NCBI GenBank assembly: GCA_018396915.1
Contig: JAGTRD010000002.1
Coordinates: 112,706-148,544 of the forward strand
DNA length: 35,839 bases
Direction of reading: 5' to 3'
Source: Candidatus Bathyarchaeota archaeon
GTDB taxonomy: Archaea > Thermoproteota > Bathyarchaeia > 40CM-2-53-6 > RBG-13-38-9
The first letter of the stretch is position 1. Every line of letters begins with the position of its first letter. Position numbers and translations under genes: made by a program. The notes beneath the pieces were generated by a model. The model searched no databases and was not told where the DNA came from. It saw only the letters and a list, made by a program, of their open reading frames with translations. Of the stretch, positions 1,791 to 20,042 are shown one piece after another.

Positions 1791-1861
1791 GTCGATATAT
1801 AACAGTGGCGAATCATGCTCTCAATAGAGAGATACAGCATCGGCTTCATATATACTAATGT

Positions 1862-2392: not shown

Positions 2393-2444
2393 AAGACCCA
2401 ATCATTCATGAATGAATACCTAATTTCAGATGTGTTTAGGCAAC

Positions 2445-2454
2445 CATTTAAGTG
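2445..2454 (+). promoter_or_regulatory. Possible TATA box of argF
   Basis: CATTTAAGTG lies 37-46 bases before the argF ATG. Position and A/T content fit an archaeal promoter, but the match is loose. Confidence 0.3.
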
Positions 2455-2490
2455 TCTATGAATTGTTAATAGACTAATTCTGGTGAGAAT

Positions 2491-3435
2491 ATGAAGGGTA
2501 GAGACCTCATCACACTCCAAGACTATAGTAGGGATGAGATAATCAGCATCTTGGAGTTGGCCATGGAGTTTAAGAGTGGGAGAGCAGATGGACAACTTCC
2601 AAACAAGAGTCTGGCCATGATATTTCAAAAGCCATCGACCCGAACATCGCATCAACCTGAAGATTGATGCGATCGGAGAAGAGTATCTTTTGAAGTAGCC
2701 ATGCGTCAACTCGGTGGGTATGCTCTATACCTCAACTGGACAGACCTCCAGCTCGGTAGGGGCGAGACGGTAGCAGACACCGCAAGAACCATAAGCAGGT
2801 ATGTCGACGGTATAGTCGCCAGAGTAAATAAACACCATACGCTTATTGAGCTGGCAGAGTATGCTATAGTCCCAGTTATAAATGGCTTATCAGATCTGAA
2901 CCATCCACTTCAAACTTTAGCAGACCTTATGACCATATTGGAGAAGAAGGGGAGATTCGAAGGCTTGAAACTGTGTTATGTAGGAGATGGAAACAACGTA
3001 TGCAACTCACTCCTAATCGGATGCTCGAAAGTTGGCTTGGACATAGTTGTCTCATGCCCTGAAGGATATGAGCCAAACCCAGAATTCCTAGACAACGCAA
3101 GAAGAAACTGTAAGGCTTCGGGTTCAAACGTAAAGTTGGAGAGAAATCCAAGAGAGGCAGCCGCAGACGCGGACATAATATATACAGACGTTATAGTGAG
3201 TATGGGTCAGGAGTCTGATCGAGAAAGAAAACTTAAAACTTTCCTTCCGGAGTACCAGGTGAATCCAGAGATTATAGAAGCAGCCAAGGGCGACGTAATC
3301 TTCATGCACCCACTACCATGCAGAAGAGGAGAAGAAGTGACAAGCTCCGTGATAGATGGACTAGCATCAGTAGTCTGGGACCAAGCCGAGAACAGGCTCC
3401 ACACAACGAAGGCCGTACTCTCCCTCATCCTATGA
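2491..3435 (+). CDS. argF: Ornithine carbamoyltransferase, interrupted by a BHB intron
   Basis: Makes citrulline from ornithine and carbamoyl phosphate in arginine synthesis. The coding sequence is join(2491..2645, 2679..3435), 303 residues, normal for the family. Read straight through, it stops at TGA 2665-2667 after 58 codons. Removing the 33-base insert restores PSTRTRVSFEVAMRQLGG, the carbamoyl-phosphate loop (S49-T-R-T-R53), with Thr52 split AC|A. Further motifs: GDGNNVCNSLL and TDVIVSMGQE, the ornithine-side DxxxSMG signature. Oddity: the family motif HCLPA reads HPLPC (residues 262-266), so the usual substrate-binding cysteine is shifted. A related carbamoyltransferase activity is therefore possible. 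The downstream frame also offers ATG 2701, but starting there would lose the essential STRTR loop. Confidence 0.88.
2646..2678 (+). other. Archaeal BHB intron inside argF mRNA (33 nt)
   Basis: The geometry is exact. A 4-bp central helix pairs CCGA 2640-2643 with TCGG 2673-2676. The 5' three-base bulge is ACA (2644-2646) and the 3' bulge is AGA (2677-2679). The inner 9-bp helix pairs TCGCATCAA (2647-2655) with TTGATGCGA (2664-2672) around an 8-base loop. The archaeal splicing endonuclease cuts after the second bulge base on each side, giving intron 2646-2678. The rejoined codon is ACA (Thr52), followed by AGA (Arg53), which is exactly the conserved enzyme sequence. The outer exon-exon helix is absent, as in relaxed motifs of TACK archaea. 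The known precedent for mRNA introns of this kind is cbf5; an argF case is new to me. Confidence 0.9.
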
Positions 3436-3459
3436 AATGAAAAAGAATGGAATGAGGAT

Positions 3460-4272
3460 TTGCCAGCCATTATATTGGCGTCAAACAACGATCCTGCTGC
3501 ATCGAATATTACTGAGAAGCTAATAACAAATTTCGGATTCACATTCGAGACAAATTATGAGGGAGATGATCTTTACAGGAAAGGCGACCTGAAACTCCTG
3601 AAGACGAACAGAGATATTCTCCATTTGAGAAGGCTTGATCCAAAGTTGAAGTTTGATACAGTGATCTGCGTATCTAGACATAGTAGTACGAGTGGAAAGC
3701 CAACACTGACAGCCCATACACCTGGCAATTTATGTTCAGAAGCTCCTATGGGTGGAGAGGCAAGAAGAATCGCCTTAGCAGACCCTTACAGGTTGAGGTC
3801 GGCGATAATCAGCTTAATTGAGGCAGCGGAGCAACTTGACCTCAAAGATTATTCAGTCTCCCTTGAGGCTACACACCATGGACCGACAGAACTTACCGTG
3901 CCAGTGCTTTTCATTGAGATAGGCAGTACCCCCAAACACTGGTTGGATATGAAGGCTGGGGAAGCCGCAGCCTCAGCTACTTTGAGAGCCGCCATGGAAA
4001 GTTCTATTGGAAAATCAGCAGTCGGCTTCGGCGGTGGACATTACGCTCCGAAACACACAAGGTATGTAGTTGAAGAAGGATTCGCTGTTGGCCACATAAT
4101 ACCCGAACATTTCTTTGAAGAGTATGAGCCCAACATAGTCGACTCAGCGTTCAGAAAGACTATTGGCGGATGCAGGACAGCCCTAGTAGACTGGAAAGGT
4201 CTCAAATCGGAGCATAGAAGAATACTCCTCTCAAGACTTGGACTGATAGGTGTAGAGATCATAAAATCATAG
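3460..4272 (+). CDS. dtdA: D-aminoacyl-tRNA deacylase, GEK1 type
   Basis: 270 residues. Archaeal/plant DtdA removes D-amino acids wrongly attached to tRNA, using zinc, and acts in the cytoplasm as translation quality control. Characteristic stretches are TAHTPGN near residue 85, EATHHGPTEL near residue 140 and GGGHYAPKHT near residue 190, all histidine-rich and conserved in the family. The start is TTG 3460, preceded by ATGAGG; the protein then opens with PAIILASNNDPAASNI, as in homologues. It lies 24 bases after argF and is probably co-transcribed. Length and motifs are complete. Confidence 0.9.
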   Translation: MPAIILASNNDPAASNITEKLITNFGFTFETNYEGDDLYRKGDLKLLKTNRDILHLRRLDPKLKFDTVICVSRHSSTSGKPTLTAHTPGNLCSEAPMGGEARRIALADPYRLRSAIISLIEAAEQLDLKDYSVSLEATHHGPTELTVPVLFIEIGSTPKHWLDMKAGEAAASATLRAAMESSIGKSAVGFGGGHYAPKHTRYVVEEGFAVGHIIPEHFFEEYEPNIVDSAFRKTIGGCRTALVDWKGLKSEHRRILLSRLGLIGVEIIKS

Positions 4273-4402
4273 AGGCCGAAAGAGCCCATGCATGTAAAAT
4301 GTTTAAGCGAAAAACTATTGAAAGGTTTATTTGCCCCCCATTATCTCCTATCCTCAACTCAGATAGTGACAGATTGATAAGAAAATTGTTGAGGTCTGGC
4401 AT

Positions 4403-4579
4403 TTGGATATTGAAAGATTCATAGAGTCTACCAAGAGGCTGATCCGTGCATCCTCCAAACCGACAAGGGAAGAGTTCTGGCTTATGCTACGTATCTCCAT
4501 ACTTGGGATAGGACTCATCGGCGGAATAGGATTCATGGTCAGGATCCTATTTCTCTTCCTAGGCACAGGAACCACGTAA
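4403..4579 (+). CDS. secE: Preprotein translocase subunit SecE (Sec61 gamma)
   Basis: A 58-residue protein from TTG 4403, with a GAGGT ribosome site at 4391-4395. The N-terminal amphipathic helix (FIESTKRLIRASSKPTREEF) carries the conserved KPTREEF motif and is followed by one transmembrane segment (about residues 27-53, rich in I, L, G and F). This is the standard architecture of SecE, which clamps the SecY channel in the cytoplasmic membrane. It stands directly before spt5, the usual archaeal gene order secE-spt5-rplK-rplA. The first 130 bases upstream (4273-4402) contain only AT-rich promoter-like sequence. Confidence 0.88.
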   Translation: MDIERFIESTKRLIRASSKPTREEFWLMLRISILGIGLIGGIGFMVRILFLFLGTGTT

Positions 4580-4586
4580 TAGTTCT

Positions 4587-5075
4587 GTGGAAGTTGAGCC
4601 TATGATCTTCGCGATTAGAACGACGAGTGGCCAAGAAAGAGCGGTTGCTGAAGTCCTAACATCGAAAGCAGCCTTGAAGAAGCTGCCGATATTCTCAGTC
4701 ATGTTTACTGAAGCCATTAAGGGATACGTATTCGTCGAGGCTCCAGGCCCCCATACAGTAGACGAAGCCATGGCGGGGATAAAACATGCCAGAACAAAGA
4801 CTAAGGGAGCTATCCAACTATCTTCAATTGAACGTTTCATAAAGGTCAGACCCACTATAGATGAGTTGAGTGACTCCGACATGGTCGAGGTCATCGCAGG
4901 GCCTTTCAGAGGCCTCAAGGCTAGGATCACACATATGGACAAGGTGAAGGGGGAGGTGACTATAGAGCTTCTCGAGGAGGGATTCGCCACCTTACCAATA
5001 ACGGTACATGCAGACTACCTGAGAAGAATATCAAAGGGCACAGGTGAAGAGGTTGGGAGAAAAGAAAACGGTTGA
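4587..5075 (+). CDS. spt5: Transcription elongation factor Spt5 (NusG family)
   Basis: 162 residues from GTG 4587. The N-terminal NGN domain (about residues 7-90, starting MIFAIRTTSGQERAVAEVL) binds the RNA polymerase clamp. A KOW domain follows (about residues 100-150), with VEVIAGPFRGLKARI as the KOW core. Archaeal Spt5 partners the small zinc protein Spt4 to make polymerase processive and to couple it to ribosomes. It begins 7 bases after secE, and its 3' end overlaps the uL11 gene, pointing to one operon. Confidence 0.93.
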   Translation: MEVEPMIFAIRTTSGQERAVAEVLTSKAALKKLPIFSVMFTEAIKGYVFVEAPGPHTVDEAMAGIKHARTKTKGAIQLSSIERFIKVRPTIDELSDSDMVEVIAGPFRGLKARITHMDKVKGEVTIELLEEGFATLPITVHADYLRRISKGTGEEVGRKENG

Positions 5076-5544
5076 AGCATTGATTAATGGGGGAGAGGCG
5101 ACGGCTGGACCTCCTTTAGGCCCATCTTTGGGGCCTTTAGGGGTAAACGTCTTACAGATAGTCAACGCTATCAACGAATTGACGAAAGCATATGCTGGAA
5201 TGAAAGTTCCAGTGAAGGTGATTGTAGACGTCGATACGAAATCATTTGAAGTTGAAATAGGAACGCCGTCAACATCAGCCTTAATAATCAGGGAGCTAGG
5301 GGTTGAGAAAGGATCTGGAAACCCTAAGGCTGAGAAAATAGGCAACCTACCGATCGAAAAAGCTCTAAAAATAGCTCAAATGAAGATGAAGGATACATAC
5401 TCAAAAGATGTTAAGGCAGCATTAAAGGAGATCCTAGGAACGTTCGTCAGCATGGGGGTAACAGTTGAGAATAAGGATCCTAGGGAGATACAGAAGGATA
5501 TAGACCGTGGAATATATGAGGAACTATTCAAAGGTGAATCTTAA
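5053..5544 (+). CDS. rplK: Ribosomal protein uL11
   Basis: About 163 residues. uL11 forms the base of the ribosomal stalk and binds the GTPase-associated region of 23S rRNA together with uL10. The motif GPPLGPSLGPLGVNVLQIV near residue 20 is diagnostic; the C-terminal RNA-binding domain follows. I place the start at TTG 5053 because GGTGA at 5043-5047 sits 5 bases upstream and the protein then begins MGEKKTVEAL like homologues; GTG 5044 is the in-frame alternative. Either way it overlaps the end of spt5 by more than 20 bases. Confidence 0.93.
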   Translation: MGEKKTVEALINGGEATAGPPLGPSLGPLGVNVLQIVNAINELTKAYAGMKVPVKVIVDVDTKSFEVEIGTPSTSALIIRELGVEKGSGNPKAEKIGNLPIEKALKIAQMKMKDTYSKDVKAALKEILGTFVSMGVTVENKDPREIQKDIDRGIYEELFKGES

Positions 5545-5597
5545 AAGTCAAAACTGAAGTACTCGAAACGTTCATTAAAGCCTTTTCATGGATGTAA

Positions 5598-6281
5598 TTG
5601 CGCCATACCCTAGGTCCAGAGGTGCGTCCCTTGCCAATCTCAAATGAGAGTGTTAGAAAAGCCTTGAGTGAGATCAGGAGTCAGGAGAGACGCGGATTTA
5701 ACGAGTCTGTGGAACTCATAATAAAACTAAGGGACATAGATCTAAAAAAACCTGAGAACAGACTCAATGAGGTAGTAGTACTACCCCATAAACTAGGCAA
5801 ACCTGTAAAGATTTGTGTAATAGCAACCGGAGACCTAGCCCTGAAATCTAAAGAAGCAAACGCGGATCTGGTCATAGGTAGAGAGCAGCTGGAAGATTTT
5901 GCTAAAGATAAGAGGTTGGCTAGAAAGTTGCAGAGGGGGTACGATTTCTTCATTTCAGAGGCGCCCCTCATGCCCCTTGTTGGCAGGACGATAGGACCTA
6001 TCCTTGGGCCTAGGGGGAAGATGCCTACACCAATCCAGATCAATACACCAATACAAGAGGTTATAGATCAAGCTAGGAGGACCGTAAGGATAAGGGTTAG
6101 GGAACAGCCTGTCATACAGTGCAGAGTAGGAACCTGCGAGTCATCCGACGAAGAGTTAACGGAGAATATTCAAGCAGTCATCACAAGAGTAGAGGGAAGA
6201 CTAGAACGAGGCTCAAGAAACATCTCCGGAATCATGATAAAGAAATCTATGGGACCTCCAATATCCATACCGTTGCAGTGA
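5598..6281 (+). CDS. rplA: Ribosomal protein uL1
   Basis: Up to 227 residues. uL1 builds the mobile L1 stalk that moves deacylated tRNA out of the E site, and in archaea it can also repress its own operon by binding mRNA. Family markers: FNESVELIIKLRDIDLKKPENR near residue 35, LMPLVGRTIGPILGPRGKMP near residue 125 and the C-terminal SMGPPISI. The start is uncertain: TTG 5598 has a poor ribosome site, and GTG 5622 would give a protein closer to the usual N-terminus. It is followed 6 bases later by rplJ. Confidence 0.92.
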   Translation: MRHTLGPEVRPLPISNESVRKALSEIRSQERRGFNESVELIIKLRDIDLKKPENRLNEVVVLPHKLGKPVKICVIATGDLALKSKEANADLVIGREQLEDFAKDKRLARKLQRGYDFFISEAPLMPLVGRTIGPILGPRGKMPTPIQINTPIQEVIDQARRTVRIRVREQPVIQCRVGTCESSDEELTENIQAVITRVEGRLERGSRNISGIMIKKSMGPPISIPLQ

Positions 6282-6287
6282 TGTGGA

Positions 6288-7160
6288 ATGTCTGTTAGAA
6301 AGATATCTCTGAAGAAGGAGTTGGCTATGGAGAGGGTGAAGAAAGCCCTCATAAAGCATAAGGTAATAGCTGCAGCGGACCTGACAAAAGTCAGGTCAAC
6401 TCAGATCCAAGAGGTTCGAAAGATGCTCAGGGGAAGAGCCGAGATACTGGTGGCAAAGAACACCATCTTCAGAATGGCATGTAAAGAACTTGAAGGTGAA
6501 AGGAAGAATATATTAAAATATGCTGAATCACTCAACGGACCATTCGCACTCATCCTCACAGGTATGAATCCGTTCGAGCTAATTCTATTTCTAAACAAGA
6601 ATAAGGTCAAGGTTCCAGCCAAAGGTGGAGACATAGCAACAGGCGACATAATAGTCCCAGCCGGAAACACAGGCCTGCCACCTGGACCCATAATCAGCGA
6701 GTTTGGAGAAGTCAAGATACCTACCAGGATAGAGTCTGGAAGCATATGGGTAACGAAAGATACAGTAGTGGCAAGGAAGGGAGACATAATATCTGCAAAA
6801 CTCGCATCCGTCCTGACGAGACTAGGTATGAAACCTATGGAGACCGGACTCTCTCTAATAGCCGCATATGATGGTGAGATTATTCTTGACAGAGAGATGT
6901 TGAAGCTAGACCTTGAAGAATATAGGGAAAACATCGTTGAGGCCACTTTTAAAGCATTAAACGTGGCATGTGAAGCAGGATACCTTACGAGTGTGACCGC
7001 CCTACCTATCTTCAGGAAGGCGTTGAATCAAGCCTCAGCCCTTGCTTTGGCTGCTGAATACATCACACCGGAGACCATAAACCCGTTATTGAGAGCCGCA
7101 TATTTGAGCATGATGACTCTAAACAACATAATAGCCATGAAGAATCCTGAGGCAGCTTAG
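6288..7160 (+). CDS. rplJ: Ribosomal stalk protein uL10 (P0), short tail
   Basis: 290 residues. The N-terminal rRNA-binding domain (MLRGRAEILVAKNTIFRMA region, about residues 45-65) is followed by the archaeal insertion domain (about 110-180) and a C-terminal helical spine that binds P1 dimers. The protein ends at NNIIAMKNPEAA. Many archaeal P0 proteins are 40-50 residues longer and finish with an acidic linker and a GLGALFG-like tip that recruits elongation factors; that tail is missing here, while P1 (next gene) has it. No frameshift or BHB motif was found that would restore a tail in the 74 bases before rpl12. Confidence 0.92.
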   Translation: MSVRKISLKKELAMERVKKALIKHKVIAAADLTKVRSTQIQEVRKMLRGRAEILVAKNTIFRMACKELEGERKNILKYAESLNGPFALILTGMNPFELILFLNKNKVKVPAKGGDIATGDIIVPAGNTGLPPGPIISEFGEVKIPTRIESGSIWVTKDTVVARKGDIISAKLASVLTRLGMKPMETGLSLIAAYDGEIILDREMLKLDLEEYRENIVEATFKALNVACEAGYLTSVTALPIFRKALNQASALALAAEYITPETINPLLRAAYLSMMTLNNIIAMKNPEAA

Positions 7161-7234
7161 GTTAGGGCAACCCTCAAATCAAAAAGAAACGCTTAAGAGT
7201 CAAGGATCATAGCACGTGTAGGAACCTCAAGCAA

Positions 7235-7552
7235 ATGGAGGAGACAGGGTTGAAGTATATATATGCAGCATTGCTGTTACATTCAGCCTCGAAACCCGTG
7301 GATGAAAAGAATCTGAGGAAGGTGTTGACAGCCATTGAGGAGGAGATCGATGAAGCCAGATTGAAGGCACTGACAGCAGCCTTATCAGAAATAAACATAG
7401 ATGAGGTTCTCAAGCAGGCCTCAACTCTCACATATGCACCTACACCTCCCCCGACGAAAGTTGCGGCGCCAGCTGAAGCGAAGGTCGAGGAGAAAAAGGA
7501 AGAGAAAAAGGAAGAGGAAGCCCTAGCAGGTTTAGGCGCCCTATTCGGATGA
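7235..7552 (+). CDS. rpl12: Ribosomal stalk protein P1 (archaeal L12)
   Basis: 105 residues with the expected three parts: an N-terminal helical dimerisation domain ([13 protein letters not shown], residues 6-18, to about residue 62), a proline/alanine hinge, and a highly charged Glu/Lys tract leading to the conserved tip GLGALFG. Several P1 dimers attach to uL10 and recruit translational GTPases. ATG 7235 follows uL10 after 74 bases. The family match is unambiguous. Confidence 0.94.
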
Positions 7553-7613
7553 GAATGGCTGGCAATTCTATCCAATTCCTCTAATCTTCAAATAATGCTC
7601 GAGGCCACCTAGA

Positions 7614-10367
7614 TTGAAGAGTCTCGAGGAAGAATTTGAAATACGATTCTTTAAAGAGAATGGTTTCAAAAGGAAGAGGTGTGAAAAATGCGGGGGCCAT
7701 TACTGGACCCAAAACCAAGACAGTAGAAATTGCGGTGACACACCATGCCAAGAATATACATTTATAAATAATCCACCGACCAAAAGGAGATTCACCCTAA
7801 ACCAATTCAGAGAGACATTCCTAAAATATTTTGAGAGTGAAGGTCACACAATAATAAACCCATATCCTGTGATAGCAAGGTGGAGGGATGACGTCTATTT
7901 AGTAGGCGCATCCATATATAATTTCCAACCATACGTCACAGAGGGAAGTATACCTCCACCGGCAAACCCCCTAGTCATAAGCCAACCATGCATAAGATTC
8001 ACAGACATCGATAAGGTAGGTCAGACCTTAGGAAGACACATGGTAATCTTCGAGATGGGTGGAGCACATGCGTTCAACTATGAAAGTAAAGAGGTGTACT
8101 GGAAAGATGAGACCATCAGACTCCACCACAACCTCTTAACAGAAGAGTTGGGTGTAAATTCTGAAGACGTAAATTATAAGGAGGACTTTTGGTCTGGAGG
8201 CGGAAACGCAGGTCCAGACGTTGAGGCGTGCATATCAGGCCTCGAGATCTCAACCCTCGTATTCATGATGTACAAATACATAGGCGACAAATTGGTCAGA
8301 ACCCCAATAAGGACAGTAGACACAGGCTACGGTATGGAAAGGTGGACATGGCTGTCGCAAGGAACACCGTCCGGATTTCACGCAGCATATGGACCATTAC
8401 TCGAAGAAGTATCAAGAATGGTTGGGGTGAAGATAGATGATAGAATAATAGCTGAGAACAGCAGAGTCTCATCCATAATCCCCGCACAATCAAGGGAGAA
8501 TTATCTCAAGTCGAGATCGAAGGTTGCAGAGAACCTTGGAGTGACGACGAGGGAAGTTACAGAAACGATGGAGAAATTCCAAAATTTATGCATGGCCCTA
8601 GACCATACCAAGGCATTATGCTTTATTCTCTCAGAAGGCATAGTACCCTCGAACATGGAAGTAGGATACTTAGCAAGGCTCCTCATCAGGAGAGCATACA
8701 GATCATTGAAAATGCTTGGTGCTGAAAACTTCTTCATAGATCTAGTTGAGAGACAGATAGAATACTGGTCTAATATCTTCTCAAACATCAAGGCTATGGA
8801 GGAAGAGATTCTTGAAGAGCTCAAGATAGAGCTTGAAAAATACAGGGTGACAGTGAATAGGGGAGCTGAACTTGTAAGAAAGATCTCTAGGGAAGCGAAG
8901 AGGGAGGGTCTAGGAGAGATCCCTCAAGAAACGTTGATTAGACTGTACGATTCACATGGCCTAGTCCCAGAGATTGTCAAGGAATTTGCAGAAGCCGAAT
9001 CGGTGAAAGTTAAGATTCCAGAAAACTTCTTTGAAATGGTTTCTCAGAGACACCTCCGAACGAAACCTGCAGGAGAGACCGTTGAGGAAAGCATCATAGA
9101 AAAGATTTCAACCCGTCACAAGACTCTCAAATTATACTATCAAGATCCATATATGAAGGAGTTTGAAGCAAAAGTAGTCGATGTAATCGAAGGAAAATAT
9201 GTGATACTGGACCAGACCCTATTCTACAGTGCAGGGGGAGGCCAACTATCAGATACTGGAGAGATCATGTTTGAAGGGGATAAGTCGAAGATTATAGACG
9301 TTAGATCTGTAGGTGATGCTGTCCTACACACAGTTGAAGGGAGCATGCCAAGAGTAGGCTCAAAAGTCAAGGGAATCATAGACTGGGATAGACGCATCAG
9401 CCTCATGAGACACCACACCTCAACCCACATTTTGATAGGGGCTGTAAGGAGGGTATTGGGAGAACATGCTTGGCAGGCAGGTGCGGCTAAGGATGTTAAG
9501 ACCAGCCGCCTAGACATATCACATTATATGCACATCACTCCTGAAGAGGTTTATGAAATCGAAAAGTTGGCGTCAGAAGTTATCACGAAAAACATTCCAG
9601 TAGAGACATTTTGGATGCCAAGGGATGAGGCCGAAAGGAGGTATGGGTATAGAATCTATCAAGGAGGGGCTGTACCTGGGACAGTGATACGAATAGTCAA
9701 GATAGGAGATTGGGATATCGAGGCCTGCGGTGGAACACATGTAAAATCTACTGGTGAGGTTGGAATAATCAAGATACTTCGCACAGAAAGAATTCAGGAT
9801 GGGGTCGAGCGATTGACGTTCACGGCGGGACCCAATGTTCTAGAGGAATTCAGGAAGATGGAGAGGCAGACAAGTCAACTATCCAAGATCCTGAGCAGTC
9901 CAATCGAGAACTTGACTGAAGCCGCCATAAAACTTGTTGAAGATCTGAAAAAAATGGAGAAGAGGGTAGAACATCTACGTGAGAACCTAACAACGATCGA
10001 GGCTGAGAACCTACTGGGCAATGCAAAGAAGATCAATAGTTTAAAGCTCGTCACCTCAAAAATAGATGATGGTGAGGATGAAGAGATTATAATGCTTGGA
10101 AGCAAGATAACGAAGACCGACCCGAAATCTGTAGCAGTAATACTTCTGGTCAAGGACACGGTCAAGATATACGTATTCGCCGGAAAGGAAGCTATTAAGC
10201 ATAAGGTAGACGCTGGGAAGGTGGCTGGAGAACTGGCAACAATAGTTGGAGGCGGAGGAGGAGGAAGAGACTACTTCGGCCAAGGTGGAGGAACAGAGAT
10301 TCATAAAGTCGAAAAGATCCTTGATGCAATACCAAAAGTAGTTAAAAAACAGATGAATAGAAAATGA
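7614..10367 (+). CDS. alaS: Alanyl-tRNA synthetase, archaeal type
   Basis: 917 residues. Charges tRNA-Ala and clears mischarged Ser/Gly. Order of domains: an archaeal N-terminal extension with CEKCGGHYW and CGDTPC (a zinc-type cluster, residues 23-45); the class II catalytic domain (about 60-330); the helical tRNA-recognition domain; the editing domain with HHTSTH near residue 600 and CGGTHV near residue 703, which bind zinc; and a C-terminal DHHA1-type C-Ala domain with the glycine run at GGGGGGRDYFGQGGG near residue 885. It starts at TTG 7614 and overlaps the leuS start by four bases (ATGA), implying translational coupling. Confidence 0.95.
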   Translation: MKSLEEEFEIRFFKENGFKRKRCEKCGGHYWTQNQDSRNCGDTPCQEYTFINNPPTKRRFTLNQFRETFLKYFESEGHTIINPYPVIARWRDDVYLVGASIYNFQPYVTEGSIPPPANPLVISQPCIRFTDIDKVGQTLGRHMVIFEMGGAHAFNYESKEVYWKDETIRLHHNLLTEELGVNSEDVNYKEDFWSGGGNAGPDVEACISGLEISTLVFMMYKYIGDKLVRTPIRTVDTGYGMERWTWLSQGTPSGFHAAYGPLLEEVSRMVGVKIDDRIIAENSRVSSIIPAQSRENYLKSRSKVAENLGVTTREVTETMEKFQNLCMALDHTKALCFILSEGIVPSNMEVGYLARLLIRRAYRSLKMLGAENFFIDLVERQIEYWSNIFSNIKAMEEEILEELKIELEKYRVTVNRGAELVRKISREAKREGLGEIPQETLIRLYDSHGLVPEIVKEFAEAESVKVKIPENFFEMVSQRHLRTKPAGETVEESIIEKISTRHKTLKLYYQDPYMKEFEAKVVDVIEGKYVILDQTLFYSAGGGQLSDTGEIMFEGDKSKIIDVRSVGDAVLHTVEGSMPRVGSKVKGIIDWDRRISLMRHHTSTHILIGAVRRVLGEHAWQAGAAKDVKTSRLDISHYMHITPEEVYEIEKLASEVITKNIPVETFWMPRDEAERRYGYRIYQGGAVPGTVIRIVKIGDWDIEACGGTHVKSTGEVGIIKILRTERIQDGVERLTFTAGPNVLEEFRKMERQTSQLSKILSSPIENLTEAAIKLVEDLKKMEKRVEHLRENLTTIEAENLLGNAKKINSLKLVTSKIDDGEDEEIIMLGSKITKTDPKSVAVILLVKDTVKIYVFAGKEAIKHKVDAGKVAGELATIVGGGGGGRDYFGQGGGTEIHKVEKILDAIPKVVKKQMNRK

Positions 10368-13258
10368 GTATAGGAAGAGTGGACTGGAAGGCCATCGAAG
10401 AGAAATGGCAAAAGAGGTGGAACGAATCAAAAATATTTGAGGTAGACCCAGATCCTAAAAGGGAGAAGACCTTTGTAACATTTCCATTCGCCTACATGAA
10501 CGGGCCATTGCATGTAGGTCACGGCTTCACAGCCGTAAAGGTAGACGCCTACGCAAGATATATGAGGATGAGGCAACGGAGCGTCCTATTCCCATGGGCT
10601 TGGCACTGGACAGGCGAGACCATAGCAGGCGCCTCGGAGAGGGTTAAGAGAAGAGACCCCGCAATAATAAAGGAGTTCAAGGAATTAGATGGGGTCTCAG
10701 ATGAGGACCTTGAGAGATTCGTAGATCCAGCGTATATAGCAAGATACTACACTGAACAGAATAGGGAGACAGTAAAGAGGATAGGCTTCTCAATAGACTG
10801 GAGAAGAGAATTTCACACAACCTCTCTGGAACCTAATTTCAGCAGATTCATCGAATGGCAATACAGGAGACTTAGGGAAGGAGGCTATGTCTTCAAAGGA
10901 ACCCACCCAGTAGTCTGGTGTCCAAACTGTGAGAGCCCAACAGGAGACCATGATAGGCTTGAAGGCGAAGGAGCGTCACCGGAAGAATATATACTAATAA
11001 AATTCCGTATGGGAGAATCTTACATTCCAGCAGCAACCTTCAGACCAGAAACAATATTTGGAGTGACAAACCTATGGATCAATCCCGAAGCCGAATATGT
11101 CCACGCCAAGGTAGATGAGGAAGCGTGGATAGTGAGCGTTGAAGCCGCAGAGAAACTCAAAGACCAGCTCAGAAGGGTGGAGGTCAATCAGAGGCTACTG
11201 GGCAGAGAACTTGTTGGAGCTACATGCATAGATCCGGTGACTGGTAAGCCCCTAATAATCTTACCAGCATGGTTCGTTGATCCAAAAAGCGGAAGTGGGG
11301 TAGTCTACAGTGTCCCAGCACATGCACCCTTAGACTGGGTGGCCCTGAGAGATCTCAAGGCCAAGCCTGAACTCGTCGAGAGGTATGGAGTGGAAAAGTC
11401 TAAGATTGAAAAGATAGAGCCCATAGGAATCATACATCTCGAAGATCATGGTGAATATCCGGCAGTTGAGATCGTTGAAGAGTTGAAAGTGAAGGATCAA
11501 TGGGACCCAAAATGTGAAGATGCAACCAAAATAATATACAGGAAAGAGTATCACACAGGCATCCTCAAGAATAATTGCCTCCAATACTCAGGGATGAGGG
11601 TTCAGGAGGTTAAGGATAGAATAGTCAGAGACTTCAAGGAGGTGAAAATCGCCGATTCAATGTTCGACTTAACCCAGAAGGTGGTATGTCGATGTACAAC
11701 TCTCTGCAAGGTGAAGATACTGCAAGACCAATGGTTCCTCCGCTACTCAGACCAGCAGTGGAAGCAGAGGACCAAACTGCTCCTTTCAAGGGCCAAAGTC
11801 TACCCTGAATCTGCAAGGCAATGGTTCCTCGACGTCATAGACTGGTACAGGGACTGGCCATGCGCTAGAAAGACAGGCTTGGGGACACCGATCCCATGGA
11901 GTCCAGAATGGATCATTGAGACACTGAGCGACTCAACAGTCTACATGGCCTTCTACACAATAAACAAGGAAATACGTAGACATAACTTAACTCCCAAGCA
12001 ATTGACAGATGAGGTCTTCGACTACATATTTCTAGGTGAGGGAAGACTGGAGGAAGTTGCTTCAAGAGCAGGAATAGAAAAAGAAGTCTTAGAAAGCATG
12101 AGGCTGGAGTTTCTATACTGGTACCCAGTTGACCTCAGAGTGTCAGCGAAAGAACTGCTGCCCAACCACCTTACATTCTACCTATTCCATCACGCCGCCA
12201 TCTTCAGAGAGGAACATTGGCCAAGGGCGATCGGAGTGAACGGAATGCTCATGATAGAAGGAGAGAAGATGTCAAAGTCAAAGGGAAACATAGTTTCTCT
12301 TAGGAGGGCTATTGAAGAACATAGCGCCGACATAGTAAGGGTCACGTTACTGATGGGTGGAGACGGCATGGATGACCCTGACTGGAGGAACGAGAATCTT
12401 AAGGACATAACCAATAGACTCGAATCATTCATGAACACTGCAAAAAATATCATAGGGATGAGTGAGGGGGGGTCCTTTGGCCATCTCGAAGAATGGTTGA
12501 CGAGTAGAATCCATGACAGGGTTGTGAAGGTTACAGAGCATCTTGAGAATCTAAAGACTAGGGCGGCGGCTGAGAATATCATATATGAGATTCAAAACGA
12601 TTTGAGATGGTATCTGAGGAGACGGGGGACGCCAAACAGCAAAGTCTTGAGGAGACTCCTCGAGACTTGGGTGAGACTTATGGCCCCATTCGCACCACAC
12701 ATCTCGGAGGAAGTGTGGGAGCTTCTTGGAAATGAAGGCTTCGTCTCAACAGAACAATGGCCTAGACCAGAAGAGTTTGAGAAGAGTTTGAGAGCTGAAC
12801 TCATTGAGGAGAGTGTTCAGAATATGATTGAAGACATAAAGAACATATTGAGGGCCACTGGAAAGACGCCAAGACGCATCATCCTATATACAGCACCAAG
12901 ATGGAAATGGAGGGCTATACTCAGAATTCTGGAGAGCAGGGTGAAAGGTTCCACTCAAGAAGGAGTTATGAAAGATCTCGCCTTAGACCCCGAGATCAAG
13001 GACGTCATCTCGGAGGCTAAAAAGTTCGTTCAGACATTTACGAAGGAAGCTACACAGGTAACCTCTGAATATGCGGAAAAAATCCTGGAAGCCGGCATAA
13101 TTGACGAGTATTCCACCCTCAAGGAAGCGATCCCATTCCTATCAAAGGAGTTTAAGGCTGAAGTTGAGGTTTACAGGTCAGACGACCACTCAAAATACGA
13201 TCCTGCTGGAAGGGCGTATCATGCGAGACCGTATAGACCGGCGGTCTACATAGAATAG
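10364..13258 (+). CDS. leuS: Leucyl-tRNA synthetase, archaeal/eukaryotic type
   Basis: 964 residues, class I synthetase for tRNA-Leu. The HIGH motif appears as HVGH at residues 50-53 (AYMNGPLHVGHGFT) and the KMSKS loop at residues 635-639. The CP1 editing insertion lies between (about residues 190-450, with the threonine-rich AATFRPETIFGVTNLW). Next come the zinc region VVCRCTTLCKVKILQDQWF near residue 445, the anticodon-binding helical domain (MAPFAPHISEEVWELLG near residue 780) and an archaeal C-terminal domain. The ATG lies inside the end of alaS. Complete and full length. Confidence 0.96.
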   Translation: MSIGRVDWKAIEEKWQKRWNESKIFEVDPDPKREKTFVTFPFAYMNGPLHVGHGFTAVKVDAYARYMRMRQRSVLFPWAWHWTGETIAGASERVKRRDPAIIKEFKELDGVSDEDLERFVDPAYIARYYTEQNRETVKRIGFSIDWRREFHTTSLEPNFSRFIEWQYRRLREGGYVFKGTHPVVWCPNCESPTGDHDRLEGEGASPEEYILIKFRMGESYIPAATFRPETIFGVTNLWINPEAEYVHAKVDEEAWIVSVEAAEKLKDQLRRVEVNQRLLGRELVGATCIDPVTGKPLIILPAWFVDPKSGSGVVYSVPAHAPLDWVALRDLKAKPELVERYGVEKSKIEKIEPIGIIHLEDHGEYPAVEIVEELKVKDQWDPKCEDATKIIYRKEYHTGILKNNCLQYSGMRVQEVKDRIVRDFKEVKIADSMFDLTQKVVCRCTTLCKVKILQDQWFLRYSDQQWKQRTKLLLSRAKVYPESARQWFLDVIDWYRDWPCARKTGLGTPIPWSPEWIIETLSDSTVYMAFYTINKEIRRHNLTPKQLTDEVFDYIFLGEGRLEEVASRAGIEKEVLESMRLEFLYWYPVDLRVSAKELLPNHLTFYLFHHAAIFREEHWPRAIGVNGMLMIEGEKMSKSKGNIVSLRRAIEEHSADIVRVTLLMGGDGMDDPDWRNENLKDITNRLESFMNTAKNIIGMSEGGSFGHLEEWLTSRIHDRVVKVTEHLENLKTRAAAENIIYEIQNDLRWYLRRRGTPNSKVLRRLLETWVRLMAPFAPHISEEVWELLGNEGFVSTEQWPRPEEFEKSLRAELIEESVQNMIEDIKNILRATGKTPRRIILYTAPRWKWRAILRILESRVKGSTQEGVMKDLALDPEIKDVISEAKKFVQTFTKEATQVTSEYAEKILEAGIIDEYSTLKEAIPFLSKEFKAEVEVYRSDDHSKYDPAGRAYHARPYRPAVYIE

Positions 13259-13281
13259 TAAGATAGTGAAAACTCAGTTTA

Positions 13282-14214
13282 TCATTGTACAGGTTCGAGC
13301 CAATCCTTATACTTCGAATCCTCACCCCTCACAACCTGGAAAAACTTGTCCTGAAGCATCTTCGTAATAGGCCCTATGGTCCCTGAGCCTATAACTCGCC
13401 CGTCCACCTCTCTTATAGGGGTAACCTCAGCAGCTGTGCCCGTGAAGAAAGCTTCATCAGCAACAAACAGCTCGTCACGAATAATCTCTCTCTCAATGAT
13501 AGGAATCGAGAATTCCTTAGCAAACTCCTTTACTGAATCCATAGTGTAACCGTATAGCGCACATGAAGTGACTGGAGGAGTGACTAATACGCCGTTCTTG
13601 ACGATGAATATGTTCTCCCCAGGCCCCTCAGCAACATAGCCATTCATGTTTAGAAGAATGGCCTCATCGTAACCACAGTTTATGGCCTCCAGTTTTGCAA
13701 GTGCAGAGTTCAAATAGTTAGCTGTGGACTTGGCGAGGGGGGGAAGGCTACGAGTATCCACACGTATCCAAGACGATATCTTACATCTAACACCTTTCTT
13801 GAGACCTTCTTCACCGAGATATGCCCCCCAAGGCCAAACGGCTATAGCCACATTCACAGGGTTCCTCGTAGGATTCAAACCCATCTCGCCGTAACCATAG
13901 TAGGCTATGGGCCTGATATAACATTCATGAATCTTATTCACCTTAACAGTGTCTTTGACAGCTTGGATGAGCTCATCGATCGAGTAAGGAATCTTCATCA
14001 TTTGCATCTTCGCACTATCATACAGGCGCCTCATATGATCCCTGAGCCTGAATATGGCAGGGCCCTTAACTGTCTCGTAACATCTTATACCCTCGAAAAC
14101 CGCGGTGGCGTAGTGAAGTGAGTGGGTCAGTACATGTATCTTAGCATCATCCCAATCGACAAACCTTCCATCCATCCATATCTTCTCTGTCTTATCCAAC
14201 CCTAACCATTCCAT
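13282..14214 (-). CDS. ilvE: Branched-chain amino acid aminotransferase
   Basis: 310 residues, fold-type IV pyridoxal-phosphate enzyme that interconverts Leu/Ile/Val and their 2-oxoacids. Markers: HYATAVFEGIRCYE near residue 35, the PLP lysine K162 in AKSTANYLNS, EGPGENIFIV near residue 195, and the phosphate-binding TGTAAEVTP near residue 255. It converges with leuS, with 23 bases between stops. With the Liv transporter further along the window it fits both synthesis and breakdown of branched-chain amino acids. D-amino-acid aminotransferase and aminodeoxychorismate lyase share the fold, but the motifs here are those of IlvE. Confidence 0.92.
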   Translation of the reverse strand: MEWLGLDKTEKIWMDGRFVDWDDAKIHVLTHSLHYATAVFEGIRCYETVKGPAIFRLRDHMRRLYDSAKMQMMKIPYSIDELIQAVKDTVKVNKIHECYIRPIAYYGYGEMGLNPTRNPVNVAIAVWPWGAYLGEEGLKKGVRCKISSWIRVDTRSLPPLAKSTANYLNSALAKLEAINCGYDEAILLNMNGYVAEGPGENIFIVKNGVLVTPPVTSCALYGYTMDSVKEFAKEFSIPIIEREIIRDELFVADEAFFTGTAAEVTPIREVDGRVIGSGTIGPITKMLQDKFFQVVRGEDSKYKDWLEPVQ

Positions 14215-14365
14215 ACCAGTATTGATTTAGATATTTTACTTCTACGAAGGGATTAAGGCTACAAGAAAAGTCTTTTGGATTCCTTACCTGAGTCGTCCAC
14301 TACAAGGTAGCTGGATCAAGTATAGAAGATTCACCTTAGAAAACACTATCGAGGCCCTAAAAGTT

Positions 14366-16066
14366 TTAAGATCCTGTCTTCCAAGGCGACTCCTTACTGT
14401 TGCCGGTTATCTCGGTCAGAGATGAAATGTCGAGCTCGAATGCTGCGACAGGATTCTCAATACCGAAATTCTCAAGAACTTGTGGATGAACCTCTCCTAA
14501 GAATCCGATTTCCCTACACGATAAGATTATGGATGCCACACGGCCCTTTATGAACGACGGATGTTCTACCCTTTCAACACTCCAACCTTCTAACCCAATA
14601 CTTTTGAAGATACTATATACCGCAGCCTGAACCTCTTCATAGCTGACCTTGTAATCGCACGAAACGGCGCCAAGTCTTCTTCTTGTGACGGTCATGGTTG
14701 GCTCATTCCGATCTATATGAACTACATCTCCACATTCAAATATTCTCTGGGGGTATGAGACATGCTTGTTGTAAGTTAAAAAGTTCAATAAGCCTGGGAT
14801 AAGCCAATTTCTCAGCACTGCGAAGTCTAGGCTCAATGGATTCGCCACCTCAACAACCTCCTGCGAAGGAAGATTCATTTTCTCCGAGAGAGAGGCTTTA
14901 TCGGTCATTATGTAATTTATTACTTCAAGATACCCTAGGCTACACATTAGGTCACGCATCCTCCTTGCCAGTCTTGTTATCGCCCTCTCAGCCCCTATTG
15001 TGGAGGTTGAGGGGATCAAAGGTTCTAGCTTACTGTATCCGTAGGCTATTGCAACATCCTCAACAAGATCTATTTCATGAATTACGTCGGCTCTGTATGC
15101 TGGTATGAATACTTTCAGTCTCTTATCGGAGTTAACTTCAACATTGTATCTCATCCTTCTCAAGAGGGCAGCTACCCTCTTTGCAGTAAGATTCAGGCCG
15201 AGGGTATCATTTACATATTTAATATTTAAGCTCATCAAATTCGGCTTCAAATCTGGGGTTTGAACCTTGGACCTTCCATATATGATTCTAGCAGACTCAA
15301 TCAACCCGCCACGCTCAGATAGACTTGTTGCTATAATATTGTTGACGAAGTTTACAAGTTTCATATCGGTTCCTGTCACTTCTAAGAGTAGATTTTCAGT
15401 CTCAGGCGTCACCTGGGTTATTACGCCATTTATTATAGGTGGCATAGAGAGAACCTTGCCTTCGGAGTCGTAGAGAAGTGGGTAGGCTTTAAAACCTTTG
15501 ATTATCCAACCATACTCTCTACCTTTGGGTGTAGACTCTAAGATCTCGTAACCATTCATCTCACTCTCCTCATCGAGTGGTGTGAACCTTATCTCTTCTG
15601 GAGGAACCGCGGCGTAGATCAATCTGTGCGTTACCTTATCTGAATCATGTATCCCAACGGAAACCTTTGTTCTGTTCCTACAGTATGTCATATGAAGTTT
15701 CTCTTGTAGTTGCATTATCTGCCTGACAGCATCGTCCGTAAGTTTCAATCCCCTAATGACTGCACCTGCAATGTAGGGTCTAATATTCCTGATTGATTCA
15801 TCTACATGGATAGTTAGATCACCCTTTGCAACCTTATATTTGGCTAAGCCCTTCTCGATTCCTAAGAGGCCCCTTAACTCTCTAGCTATGCCCTCTGAAC
15901 ATAATAGGTCGGGTCTATCTGAGGTGACTTCTAGGATGAGTTCATCGCCACAAACACCTTCTACCCCACATTTCATCATGAAGAGTTTCTCACTCAGAAT
16001 ATCGAGAGACAACTCCTTGCCGATCATGCTGCATAAGTCTCTATATCCAACTTTTAGTGTCGGCAA
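14366..16066 (-). CDS. pheT: Phenylalanyl-tRNA synthetase beta subunit
   Basis: 566 residues, the archaeal-length beta chain (shorter than bacterial PheT because it lacks the N-terminal EMAP-like and C-terminal anticodon-binding extensions). It contains the B3/B4 editing region (about residues 80-230), the DNA-binding-fold B5 domain (about 270-345) and a catalytic-like C-terminal domain (YLEVINYIMTD through GFLGEVHPQVLENFGI). It pairs with PheS as an alpha2-beta2 enzyme. It starts at ATG 16066, 6 bases after the pheS stop, so the two are one operon. The tail ends SKESPWKTGS and looks intact. Confidence 0.94.
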   Translation of the reverse strand: MPTLKVGYRDLCSMIGKELSLDILSEKLFMMKCGVEGVCGDELILEVTSDRPDLLCSEGIARELRGLLGIEKGLAKYKVAKGDLTIHVDESIRNIRPYIAGAVIRGLKLTDDAVRQIMQLQEKLHMTYCRNRTKVSVGIHDSDKVTHRLIYAAVPPEEIRFTPLDEESEMNGYEILESTPKGREYGWIIKGFKAYPLLYDSEGKVLSMPPIINGVITQVTPETENLLLEVTGTDMKLVNFVNNIIATSLSERGGLIESARIIYGRSKVQTPDLKPNLMSLNIKYVNDTLGLNLTAKRVAALLRRMRYNVEVNSDKRLKVFIPAYRADVIHEIDLVEDVAIAYGYSKLEPLIPSTSTIGAERAITRLARRMRDLMCSLGYLEVINYIMTDKASLSEKMNLPSQEVVEVANPLSLDFAVLRNWLIPGLLNFLTYNKHVSYPQRIFECGDVVHIDRNEPTMTVTRRRLGAVSCDYKVSYEEVQAAVYSIFKSIGLEGWSVERVEHPSFIKGRVASIILSCREIGFLGEVHPQVLENFGIENPVAAFELDISSLTEITGNSKESPWKTGS

Positions 16067-16072
16067 CTCGTA

Positions 16073-17581
16073 TCACCACATCGGTCTATCCCTTAACCAG
16101 TCGAGCCTTCTCGAATGTAGATCCCTTATATCTTCAAGATTAAGGGCTATCATTGCGAGCCTATCAAAGCCTATGCCCCAAGCGATAACTGGAAAATCTA
16201 TTCCAAGAGGTTTCAGAACTTCGGGCCTGAACATCCCAGCGCCTACAAACTCGATCCAGCCTAGAGTTGGATGTTTAATATAGGATTCGACACTAGGTTC
16301 GGTGAAGGGAAAGTATCCCGGTTTGAATCTAACATCGCCGAGCTTGAGGGTGGATGCAAATCTCTGTAGGAAACCTAGTAGATGTCTCATGGTAATACCC
16401 TTATCTCCAACGATACCTTCAAGCTGCGTGAATTCCATAGAATGTTTCGCATCCAGAACATCTGGCCTGAAGACTTTCGATAGGCAGAACATTCTTACAG
16501 GAGGCTTTTTATGTGAAGCGAGATGTCTCATCGAGACAGCTGTAGTCTGGGTCCTTAGAATCAGCCTCTCGGCAATACTCTCATCCCACCTGTACCCCCA
16601 TCCTTTCGAACCCGTTATCCAGCCATCCTGATGTGTCCTTTTAACCTTCTCGACAAGACCCCTATCCTCCAACCTACACCTCTGTGGGTACTTCAATATG
16701 TAACTGTCATGAATCTCCCTTGCGGGATGGTCTTGTGCTTGGAAAAGAATGTCGAAATTCCAGAATTCAGCCTCGACGAGGGGCCCTTCATCCTCGTCGA
16801 ACCCCATCGCAAGAAGAATTCGCCTAGCTTCATCCATAAAATCGGCATAAGGATTCTTCTTTCCAGGATAGATGGGGGGAGGGGAGGCTTTGACATCGTA
16901 CTCTATAAGCTCAATGTTTCTCCATCTCCCGCCGAGGATCATCTCAGATGTGAGAGCTGTAACGGTCTTGGAAACCTCTATGCTAGGGATCGGTGTGGAG
17001 AGACCTTCAGGGGTCAACTCAACCTCCCTATCAACCCTACGATACATCTCCAAGAGATTCCGTTCTTTGAGTCTGGATATGGACTGGCTGAACTGTTCTT
17101 TGAGATCCTCAAGCGGCACCTCACCTTTGGAATATATTAGGCGGAGGGTAACTTCATCGGGATCTAAGCCGCCCATCCCTGAACTGCGGATATAGACCGA
17201 ACCTCCACGTCTCAGTATTTCGCCGAGGCCCTTCCTCCTCAACCAGCCTAAGACTATGGAAGGCTCAATGTCACCCAAGCGAGCTTTAGATAGAGCTTCG
17301 TCCAAGCTGGCCTCCCCACCAAGATACCTCACCGTTGATGAAAGCCTAACTTCTGGAAGGCCGAGCTGAGCGTATGTAGTACCCTCCTGGTTGAGTCTTA
17401 CCATAACAGTCGCCTTTTCGTTGACCTTGACCAAACCTCTATTCGAGAGTGTTAAGGCGGCGCGCATCACTGCTGAGTCTTGAAGCCCAGACTTCTTGAC
17501 AATATCTGGTAGGCGAGCCCTACCTCCAATATCCTTCAGGATAGATAATACACGTATCTCGTTTTCACGCATAGCAGACAT
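16073..17581 (-). CDS. pheS: Phenylalanyl-tRNA synthetase alpha subunit
   Basis: About 500 residues; catalytic chain of PheRS. N-terminal winged-helix repeats (starting MRENEIRVLSILKDIGG) bind tRNA, followed by the class II core: motif 2 region RTQTTAVSMRHLA, FCLSKVFRPDVLDAKHSMEFTQ, and motif 3 IAWGIGFDRLAMIAL near the end. The reading frame is open to ATG 17629, but a TATA-like TTTTTTATC on the minus strand near 17640-17650 would start the transcript near 17620. The ATG at 17581, preceded by GGTGGG, also gives a protein of family length. Start is therefore the only uncertain point. Confidence 0.93.
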   Translation of the reverse strand: MSAMRENEIRVLSILKDIGGRARLPDIVKKSGLQDSAVMRAALTLSNRGLVKVNEKATVMVRLNQEGTTYAQLGLPEVRLSSTVRYLGGEASLDEALSKARLGDIEPSIVLGWLRRKGLGEILRRGGSVYIRSSGMGGLDPDEVTLRLIYSKGEVPLEDLKEQFSQSISRLKERNLLEMYRRVDREVELTPEGLSTPIPSIEVSKTVTALTSEMILGGRWRNIELIEYDVKASPPPIYPGKKNPYADFMDEARRILLAMGFDEDEGPLVEAEFWNFDILFQAQDHPAREIHDSYILKYPQRCRLEDRGLVEKVKRTHQDGWITGSKGWGYRWDESIAERLILRTQTTAVSMRHLASHKKPPVRMFCLSKVFRPDVLDAKHSMEFTQLEGIVGDKGITMRHLLGFLQRFASTLKLGDVRFKPGYFPFTEPSVESYIKHPTLGWIEFVGAGMFRPEVLKPLGIDFPVIAWGIGFDRLAMIALNLEDIRDLHSRRLDWLRDRPMW

Positions 17582-17761
17582 AGACCCACCCATCTGGAAA
17601 CGACCCACAATATTCCACAATACTCCCAACCAAGTATGATAAAAAACTGGCGTATGGAGACCAGGGGTACCCTCAATATTGTCTGGAATTGACTCAATTA
17701 ACGACTCCTGAACGGAAAGTCTTAGAAGGATATCAGCGATAAATTATATGGTGGTGATTTG

Positions 17762-19542: not shown

Positions 19543-19721
19543 CCCCGCATCCAACCATGCCAGGCATTGCAGGAATTGGCTTACATCGATGCAATAAGTC
19601 TTTCCCGTTAAGGTTCATAGACAAAAATCGAATAAAGGTTCACCTATTGATACGCACATACTTCGTCTAGGTTTATTATTTTAACCATATTGTGTAAGCC
19701 TATCTACCTGTTTCGATAAAC

Positions 19722-19730
19722 TTTAATTAA
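19722..19730 (+). promoter_or_regulatory. Probable TATA box of the tRNA-Trp gene
   Basis: TTTAATTAA in an AT-rich stretch. Adding the usual spacing of about 26 bases puts transcription start near 19752-19755, giving a pre-tRNA leader of about 20 bases that begins with the GTGGGG that can pair with the tRNA 3' end. Confidence 0.45.
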
Positions 19731-19785
19731 ACTGATGAATTCTCCAATTCTCAGTGGGGTCGATCATCCTTGGACGGGGCCGTAG

Positions 19786-19811
19786 AAGGGGTTTAATATG
19801 CTCCTGCGGAT
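19786..19811 (+). other. tRNA-Trp intron 1 (26 nt), between positions 10 and 11
   Basis: Exact BHB without outer helix. Central helix CCGT 19780-19783 pairs with GCGG 19806-19809 (one G-U). The 5' bulge is AGA (19784-19786) and the 3' bulge ATT (19810-19812). Inner helix AGGGG 19787-19791 pairs with CTCCT 19801-19805. Cutting after the second base of each bulge joins G10 to T11 and creates the four-pair D stem. Confidence 0.85.
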
Positions 19812-19828
19812 TCAAGCCAGGGATGACG

Positions 19829-19861
19829 ACAGCTGAACCGGCATGTCGAGGGTCAGCCGCC
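19829..19861 (+). other. tRNA-Trp intron 2 (about 33 nt), near positions 26/27
   Basis: The limits are set by the need to join G26 to the anticodon stem AAGGG. Inner helix GCTGA 19832-19836 pairs with TCAGC 19853-19857. The next helix TGACG/CGCCA (19824-19828 with 19858-19862) has one A-C mismatch, and bulge ACA follows on the 5' side. The A at 19829 and at 19862 makes the junction ambiguous by one base (alternative 19830-19862). Confidence 0.6.
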
Positions 19862-19872
19862 AAGGGCTCCAG

Positions 19873-19891
19873 AAGCATACTGGGTCAGCAG
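19873..19891 (+). other. tRNA-Trp intron 3 (19 nt), anticodon loop 37/38
   Basis: Lies at the canonical archaeal intron site, one base 3' of the anticodon. The anticodon stem AAGGG (19862-19866) pairs with CCCTT (19893-19897) around it. CAGA is present on both sides (19870-19873 and 19889-19892), so five junction registers give the same mature loop CTCCAGA. No strict four-pair central helix is seen; the motif is relaxed. Confidence 0.65.
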
Positions 19892-19899
19892 ACCCTTCA

Positions 19900-19957
19900 A
19901 AGGGGATGATGAACTTCAGGAGCGGGGAGGAAACCCGTAGACATAGGATTGGCGGAA
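19900..19957 (+). other. tRNA-Trp intron 4 (about 58 nt), variable loop near 45/46
   Basis: Separates the anticodon stem from the T arm. Limits are chosen so that a five-base variable loop with C48 results; they may be off by one or two bases. CTTC 19895-19898 can pair with GAAG 19955-19958, and that register would instead leave a three-base variable loop. The intron includes ATGATGA (19906-19912), which matches a C box. Confidence 0.5.
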
Positions 19958-19971
19958 GTCGAGGGTTCAAA

Positions 19972-19993
19972 ATGGTCCGTGAGACCATGAATA
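19972..19993 (+). other. tRNA-Trp intron 5 (22 nt), T loop 59/60
   Basis: Perfect complete BHB. The outer helix is the T stem GAGGG 19961-19965 with CCCTT 19995-19999. Central helix TTCA 19966-19969 pairs with TGAA 19988-19991. The 5' bulge is AAA (19970-19972) and the 3' bulge TAT (19992-19994). Inner helix TGGTC 19973-19977 pairs with GACCA 19983-19987. Splicing makes the seven-base loop TTCAAAT. Position 59/60 is a known noncanonical archaeal intron site. Confidence 0.92.
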
Positions 19994-20042
19994 TCCCTTC
20001 GGCCCCACCATACAAAACCTGATTTTCTAAGTGGGATACAAT

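Follow-up and report, generated by a model that had tools for sequence, protein, structure and literature searches.

The tRNA-Trp gene and its genomic setting

How many introns can a single archaeal tRNA gene hold and still give rise to a tRNA? The question is raised by a locus at 19776-20010 (+) of the window, the 35,839-nucleotide stretch from a Candidatus Bathyarchaeota archaeon that was analyzed here in full. A first-pass annotation described these 235 bases as a tRNA-Trp gene with anticodon CCA and an encoded CCA end, in which only 77 bases are mature tRNA and the rest belongs to five introns. Alignment of relatives confirms this identity and upholds the intron count. The gene has six exons, and the 77 mature bases include an encoded ACCA (discriminator A plus CCA). 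Once joined, the exons give a full cloverleaf that has anticodon CCA and the invariant bases, 73 of 73 positions can be aligned to relatives, and ARAGORN recognizes the spliced 77-mer as tRNA-Trp(cca). The annotation's warning that standard finders could miss the gene was justified, as ARAGORN and Rfam cmscan (gathering thresholds) return zero tRNAs from the window with the gene in its unspliced form. The exons follow one another in the normal sequence, on the same strand, over 235 bases, and the gene is neither a split nor a permuted tRNA.

The host genome assembly (G000; 1.63 Mb) is fragmented into 42 contigs and 96% complete. A gene-region search finds the locus as a single copy in this assembly, with orthologues that are 97% identical in the same genus and 73-78% identical in members of the family and order. 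The annotation had asked whether the genome holds another tRNA-Trp gene, and none was found in the 42 contigs by BLAST, pattern searches or the Rfam tRNA search, which gave 19 matches above cut-off. An unbroken anticodon-to-T-arm pattern for a second tRNA-Trp had one match, L215, which is not a tRNA.

An AT-rich, TATA-like element precedes the gene:

19718-19731 (+), TATA-like element AAACTTTAATTAAA, roughly 45-58 nt ahead of the mature 5' end

The element is near-identical at a similar distance in G000, G001, G007 and G005, and reads AAAGTTTAATTAAA in the last two; it is a putative promoter. The neighborhood at 130-17629 is rich in translation genes, with synthetases (a class II Asp/Asn/Lys-type enzyme, AlaRS, a class I Leu-type enzyme and both PheRS subunits), a D-aminoacyl-tRNA deacylase and ribosomal proteins L1, L10 and L11.

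A functional, single tRNA-Trp(CCA) gene with five introns of the bulge-helix-bulge (BHB) type is very probably the correct account of the locus as a whole. The comparison between genomes shows the intron positions, the choice of exons, the BHB pairing, the conservation of the guides and the co-occurrence of a leader strand with the 10/11 intron. From these we infer that the window gene is transcribed and spliced, that its product is methylated and that the leader has a role.

Intron-less relatives fix the splice sites

Of the 257 class genomes, 136 contained a pattern running from exon 3 to exon 4, and most such loci were retrieved. Each locus was compared with the mature tRNA by an alignment method that allows for introns; L094, a pattern match that is no tRNA, was excluded. 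The mature sequence is near-constant among the class loci (GGGGCCGTAGTCTAGCCAGGNATGACGACGGGCTCCAGACCCGTAGGTC...). The resulting map of the window gene is as follows:

19776-19785 (+), exon 1, tRNA positions 1-10, GGGGCCGTAG, from intron-aware alignment to relatives
19786-19811 (+), intron 1 at 10/11, 26 nt, absent in L036, L037, L039, L041 and L055
19812-19830 (+), exon 2, positions 11-28, TCAAGCCAGGGATGACGAC, directly joined to exon 3 in L055 and in many members of the class
19831-19863 (+), intron 2 at 28/29, 33 nt, from alignment and BHB scoring
19864-19872 (+), exon 3, positions 29-37 with anticodon CCA, GGGCTCCAG, from alignment
19873-19932 (+), intron 3 at 37/38, 60 nt, with a layout of the box C/D guide type, in every homologue found
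19933-19940 (+), exon 4, positions 38-45, ACCCGTAG, from alignment
19941-19957 (+), intron 4 at 45/46, 17 nt, absent in L043 and L047
19958-19971 (+), exon 5, positions 46-59, GTCGAGGGTTCAAA, from alignment
19972-19993 (+), intron 5 at 59/60, 22 nt, absent in L042 and others
19994-20010 (+), exon 6, positions 60-72 with discriminator A and encoded CCA, read directly and from alignment

Among the orthologues in more than 120 relatives there are genes without each of introns 1, 2, 4 and 5. L036 lacks the 10/11 intron and L042 the 59/60 intron. Positions 1-37 are unbroken in L055, which lacks introns 1 and 2 and reads GGGGCCGTAGTCTAGCCAGGGATGACGAC directly followed by GGGCTCCAG. In L043 and L047, which lack intron 4, ACCCGTAG runs into GTC at 45/46; both are unbroken from position 38 through 59, and L047 continues so onward. 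These naturally intron-less versions establish 10/11, 28/29, 45/46 and 59/60 as genuine intron sites. No gene lacks the 37/38 intron, which makes this the only junction without a natural intron-less version; in genes such as L188 and L192 it is the sole intron.

The first-pass map differed from this one in the middle of the gene. Its sites at 10/11 and 59/60 stand, borne out by the relatives that lack these introns, as do the 5' site at 37/38 and the 3' site at 45/46. Its 26/27 intron is misplaced and belongs at 28/29, and its exon ACCCTTCA (19892-19899) lies inside intron 3, so that its introns 3 and 4 of 19 and 58 nt become 60 and 17 nt and its anticodon stem AAGGG/CCCUU becomes ACGGG/CCCGU. 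That assembly, which places introns at 26/27 and 45/46, likewise yields a perfect cloverleaf and is identified by ARAGORN as tRNA-Trp(cca); the decision between the two comes from splice motifs and relatives. At 26/27 only 1 of 4 BHB central positions pairs and an inner helix is absent, as against 3 of 4 pairs and a 5-bp inner helix at 28/29. Relatives have no such exon: CCCTT is missing at the corresponding place (for example in L033, L034 and L038) and ACCCGTAG is constant. Intron-less relatives show ACGACGGG and ACCCGTAGGTC. The first-pass assembly is highly improbable.

BHB motifs and the splicing machinery

BHB motifs were scored in a strict register of four central positions and a 2+1 bulge, with the cut after the second bulge base. 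Introns 1-5 of the host gene have 4, 3, 3, 4 and 4 of 4 standard central-helix pairs; the non-standard pairs are in introns 2 and 3. Across 321 class introns the central helix is complete in 154 and has 3 of 4 pairs in 141, compared with 3.2% and 19.8% of shuffled introns. Introns 1 and 4 both have CCGU/GCGG (4/4). The central helix of intron 2 is GACG/CGCC (3/4, with an A.C mismatch) next to an inner helix of GCUGA/UCAGC, and in many relatives the strand is CGUU, which gives 4/4. Intron 5 forms a full BHB with the T stem outside, UUCA/UGAA in the center and UGGUC/GACCA inside. Over 10 genes, 94.9% of the cells in this structure are paired, and two-sided changes occur at 4 of the 5 inner-helix pairs.

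The host genome encodes two tRNA_int_endo proteins (EndA subunits), RtcB and fibrillarin. EndA alpha has a Tyr-His-Lys triad and EndA beta lacks it, as read by eye from the translations. The enzyme would be of the (alpha-beta)2 type with broad specificity and is predicted to cut the window gene. In the proposed pathway, EndA with its catalytic and non-catalytic subunits would cleave every BHB, and the exons would be ligated by RtcB into the 77-nt tRNA.

A decaying pseudogene broken by random insertions, which the first-pass annotation had named as its alternative and for which the small exon share (77 of 235 bases) might speak, is barely credible and is rejected as untenable, because the exons are conserved at 96-100% (70-72 of 73 positions identical in members of the family and order, 60 of 60 in a partial copy from the same genus) while the introns have diverged (mostly 36-82% identical to those of relatives), the splice motifs are structured and the machinery is present, the same gene is kept in more than 120 genomes and no other tRNA-Trp was found.

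Intron 3 resembles a methylation guide

Intron 3 has an internal layout that the first-pass annotation could not see:

19881-19888 (+), guide element for nt 39, TGGGTCAG, with partial degeneracy in the window's genus; class consensus ACGGGTTTG
19889-19892 (+), D/D'-box-like CAGA; class consensus CKGA
19906-19912 (+), C/C' box ATGATGA, matching RUGANRA
19914-19923 (+), guide element towards C34, CTTCAGGAGC, 9/10 complementary to GCUCCAGAAG

The elements are ordered guide39-D'-C'-guide34. Among 123 class introns at 37/38, RUGANRA is present in 122, GGAGC in 122, and CNGA within the first 40 nt in 119. The guide39 target consists of the intron end and positions 38-43, with nt 39 fifth before the box, and 8 of 8 pairs form in this +5 register in 83 of the 123 introns. 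Guide34 makes at least 9 of 10 pairs with positions 31-37 and the first intron bases in 115 of the 123. An archaeal tRNA-Trp intron is known to guide methylation at positions 34 and 39 (PMC7994747), and sites C34 and C39 of tRNA-Trp are predicted in Pyrococcus furiosus (PMC7668247). At the level of the class, these patterns support intron 3 as a member of this box C/D guide type; membership of the window copy is less than full because its guide39 is partly degenerate, its D box reads CAGA and guide34 is not followed by a clear CUGA. At a permissive threshold Rfam reports only sub-threshold C/D sRNA matches inside the intron. Intron 3 would be the old archaeal tRNA-Trp intron and would guide 2'-O-methylation of C34 and nt 39.

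Intron 3 of L169 (G188:C34) and of L168 (G187:C18) is identical to that of other genera (G009, G143), which suggests that these two contigs are mis-binned in their assemblies.

A leader strand accompanies the 10/11 intron

The sequence upstream of exon 1, whose involvement was likewise not visible in the first pass, holds two segments complementary to the tRNA:

19756-19763 (+), leader 'decoy' strand GGGGTCGA, 8 pairs (one G.U) with the 3' acceptor strand 19999-20006
19764-19773 (+), leader segment TCATCCTTGG, with its complement in exon 2 (19817-19826)

In each of the 10 genes that contain a 10/11 intron, the acceptor 5' strand occurs a second time, 10-20 nt before the mature end, in a copy complementary to the 3' acceptor strand; copies besides that of the window are found at L033, L034, L035, L038, L040, L042, L043 and L201. 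A leader element of at least 6 bp is present in 10 of 10 genes with the 10/11 intron and in 5 of 113 without it (Fisher p = 2e-11, uncorrected for ancestry), and one of at least 7 bp in 9 of 10 and 0 of 113; shuffled leaders reach 7 bp in 0.5% of cases. These statistics ignore shared ancestry, and the positives involve five families and one matching change, in L201, where the acceptor is GGGACCG/CGGUCCC and the leader is GGGACCGG. Relatives from the same order without intron 1 are also without the leader element (G004, G009, G016 and G019). In unconstrained minimum-energy folds of leader plus precursor, 6-8 acceptor-end bases pair with the leader in 9 of 9 positives and 0 of 6 negatives. The fold of the host gene has z = -6.8 relative to shuffled leaders and includes the second leader helix, with exon 2; the leader-exon 2 pairing is similar in G007 and G005.

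The BHB of intron 1 uses C5-U8, and for this reason we infer that the leader frees exon 1 by holding the 3' acceptor strand. The upstream acceptor copy probably acts as a leader splint. The leader strand would pair with the 3' acceptor strand, and in the window's family with exon 2 too, leaving nt 5-8 of exon 1 free to form the intron 1 BHB; once splicing is complete, the leader pairing would give way to the normal acceptor stem. If this is true, splicing has to come before 5' processing by RNase P.

The strand might instead be the mere remnant of a tandem duplication of exon 1, with no role in splicing. The copies of L040, L042, L043 and L201, 10-12 nt upstream, do look like tandem repeats. 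However, the copy keeps or improves its pairing with the 3' strand while U8 is lost, it changes along with the acceptor in L201, and it is missing in all of the close relatives without intron 1 named above. We consider a functionless remnant unlikely, but of appreciable weight. The mature 5' end could also be thought to lie in the upstream copy (GGGGTCGA, 19756), with the region between the copies as a sixth intron or a spacer, given that this copy does pair with the 3' acceptor strand. Such an end is most improbable: in nearly all positives the upstream copy is without the invariant U8 (L043 is the clear exception), and the downstream copy, which is constant, stands alone in genes without intron 1.

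Leaders in another family (f3: L048, L049, L052, L054 and relatives) contain a conserved element, TCGGTGGG, 30-43 nt upstream, that is complementary to CCCACCGG (T stem and acceptor start); these genes have no 10/11 intron.

Intron gain and possible copying within the gene

Introns 1, 2, 4 and 5 would be later additions, gained and lost among relatives. Introns 1 and 4 are both preceded by the exon hexamer CCGUAG. In G012 the 10/11 intron (ACAAAACATTGGCGGAC, L034:1490-1506) and the 45/46 intron (ACAAAACATTGGCGGAA, L034:1618-1634) are identical at 16 of 17 positions, and none of 2000 shuffles was as similar. The likeness is weak in G017, a relative of G012 (p = 0.075), and between introns 1 and 4 of the host genome similarity was not above chance, with none beyond the BHB strand. 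The G012 pair suggests that an intron was copied within one tRNA-Trp gene. The combined proposal, that a built-in leader splint is needed only with a 10/11 intron and that new introns are copied into the CCGUAG hexamer elsewhere in the same tRNA, is one towards which we lean slightly.

The frame ATG...CATGA of the 59/60 intron recurs in other tRNA genes. One of these is in the host genome (L216 on G000:C1, T-loop at 124267-124278), a probable tRNA-Glu(CUC) gene with a 59/60 intron in the intron 5 frame and an additional 37/38 intron. Intron transposition has been reported for the multi-intron tRNA genes of Thermoproteales (PMC4033280, PMC3218864), and is described there as large-scale (Fujishima 2010, as cited in PMC4033280).

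Intron numbers across the class

Among 122 complete tRNA-Trp genes, 14 have one intron, 48 have two, 35 three, 19 four and 6 five, a distribution that is no unbiased census because the sampling pattern needed exact exon 3 and exon 4 strings. The five-intron genes belong to G000, G003, G005 and G007 in one family and to G012 and G017 in another family of the same order; the G001 gene shows four introns before the contig breaks off within intron 5. Across the class, introns occupy sites that include 10/11, 17/17a, 25/26, 28/29, 37/38, 43/44, 45/46 and 59/60. Other tRNA genes of the host genome, located by T-arm searches followed by acceptor matching, span about 75-158 bases, and in this incomplete sample none is as heavily interrupted as tRNA-Trp.

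In G000 and its relatives, the Rfam tRNA search yields just 5-33 tRNA genes per genome, even from near-complete assemblies. Because so few are recovered, many tRNA genes of Bathyarchaeia are probably hidden by introns.

Reviews and tools to 2021 give three introns as the maximum for an archaeal tRNA gene (PMC8450103, PMC4033280, PMC3293823, PMC3218864), in line with the first-pass view that five would be exceptional against about three. Five is above every per-gene number found in the searched literature; an Asgard gene with four or five introns may already be tabulated. The documented intron count for a single tRNA gene thereby rises from three to five. Bathyarchaeia are an abundant uncultured class whose tRNA sets are poorly annotated as standard tools miss such genes, and the versions of one gene with one to five introns are a natural series for testing tRNA intron gain and loss.

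Comparison with known systems

Intron 3 is like the tRNA-Trp intron of Haloferax and the Pyrococcus sR50 in its position at 37/38, in having C/D boxes and in its antisense elements, one directed at nt 34 and one at nt 39. It differs in its length of about 60 nt, in terminal C and D boxes that are weak or unrecognizable, in a guide39 that is degenerate in the window's genus and in the four other introns around it. The gene shares with Thermoproteales (Pyrobaculum, Thermofilum) the presence of canonical and non-canonical BHB introns in one gene, and the EndA of its host would likewise be heterotetrameric, but it belongs to a different class and has five introns, compared with a maximum of three in Thermoproteales (PMC4033280, PMC3293823, PMC8450103). 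The Asgard Atabeyarchaeia and Freyarchaeia, members of a different phylum, have introns in most tRNA genes, several in more than half and many of them non-canonical (PMC11291895); the main text of that paper gives no per-gene maximum with which the number five could be compared.

A description of a leader splint of this kind was not found in the searched literature, which had most subscription journals outside its scope, and a strand of this sort, occurring together with the 10/11 intron, would assist tRNA splicing in cis in a novel manner. The closest likeness is to the split tRNA genes of Nanoarchaeum and Caldivirga, in which a leader outside the mature tRNA base-pairs and sets up the BHB. 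In contrast to these, the gene described here is continuous, and its leader would pair with the 3' strand of the acceptor within one transcript.
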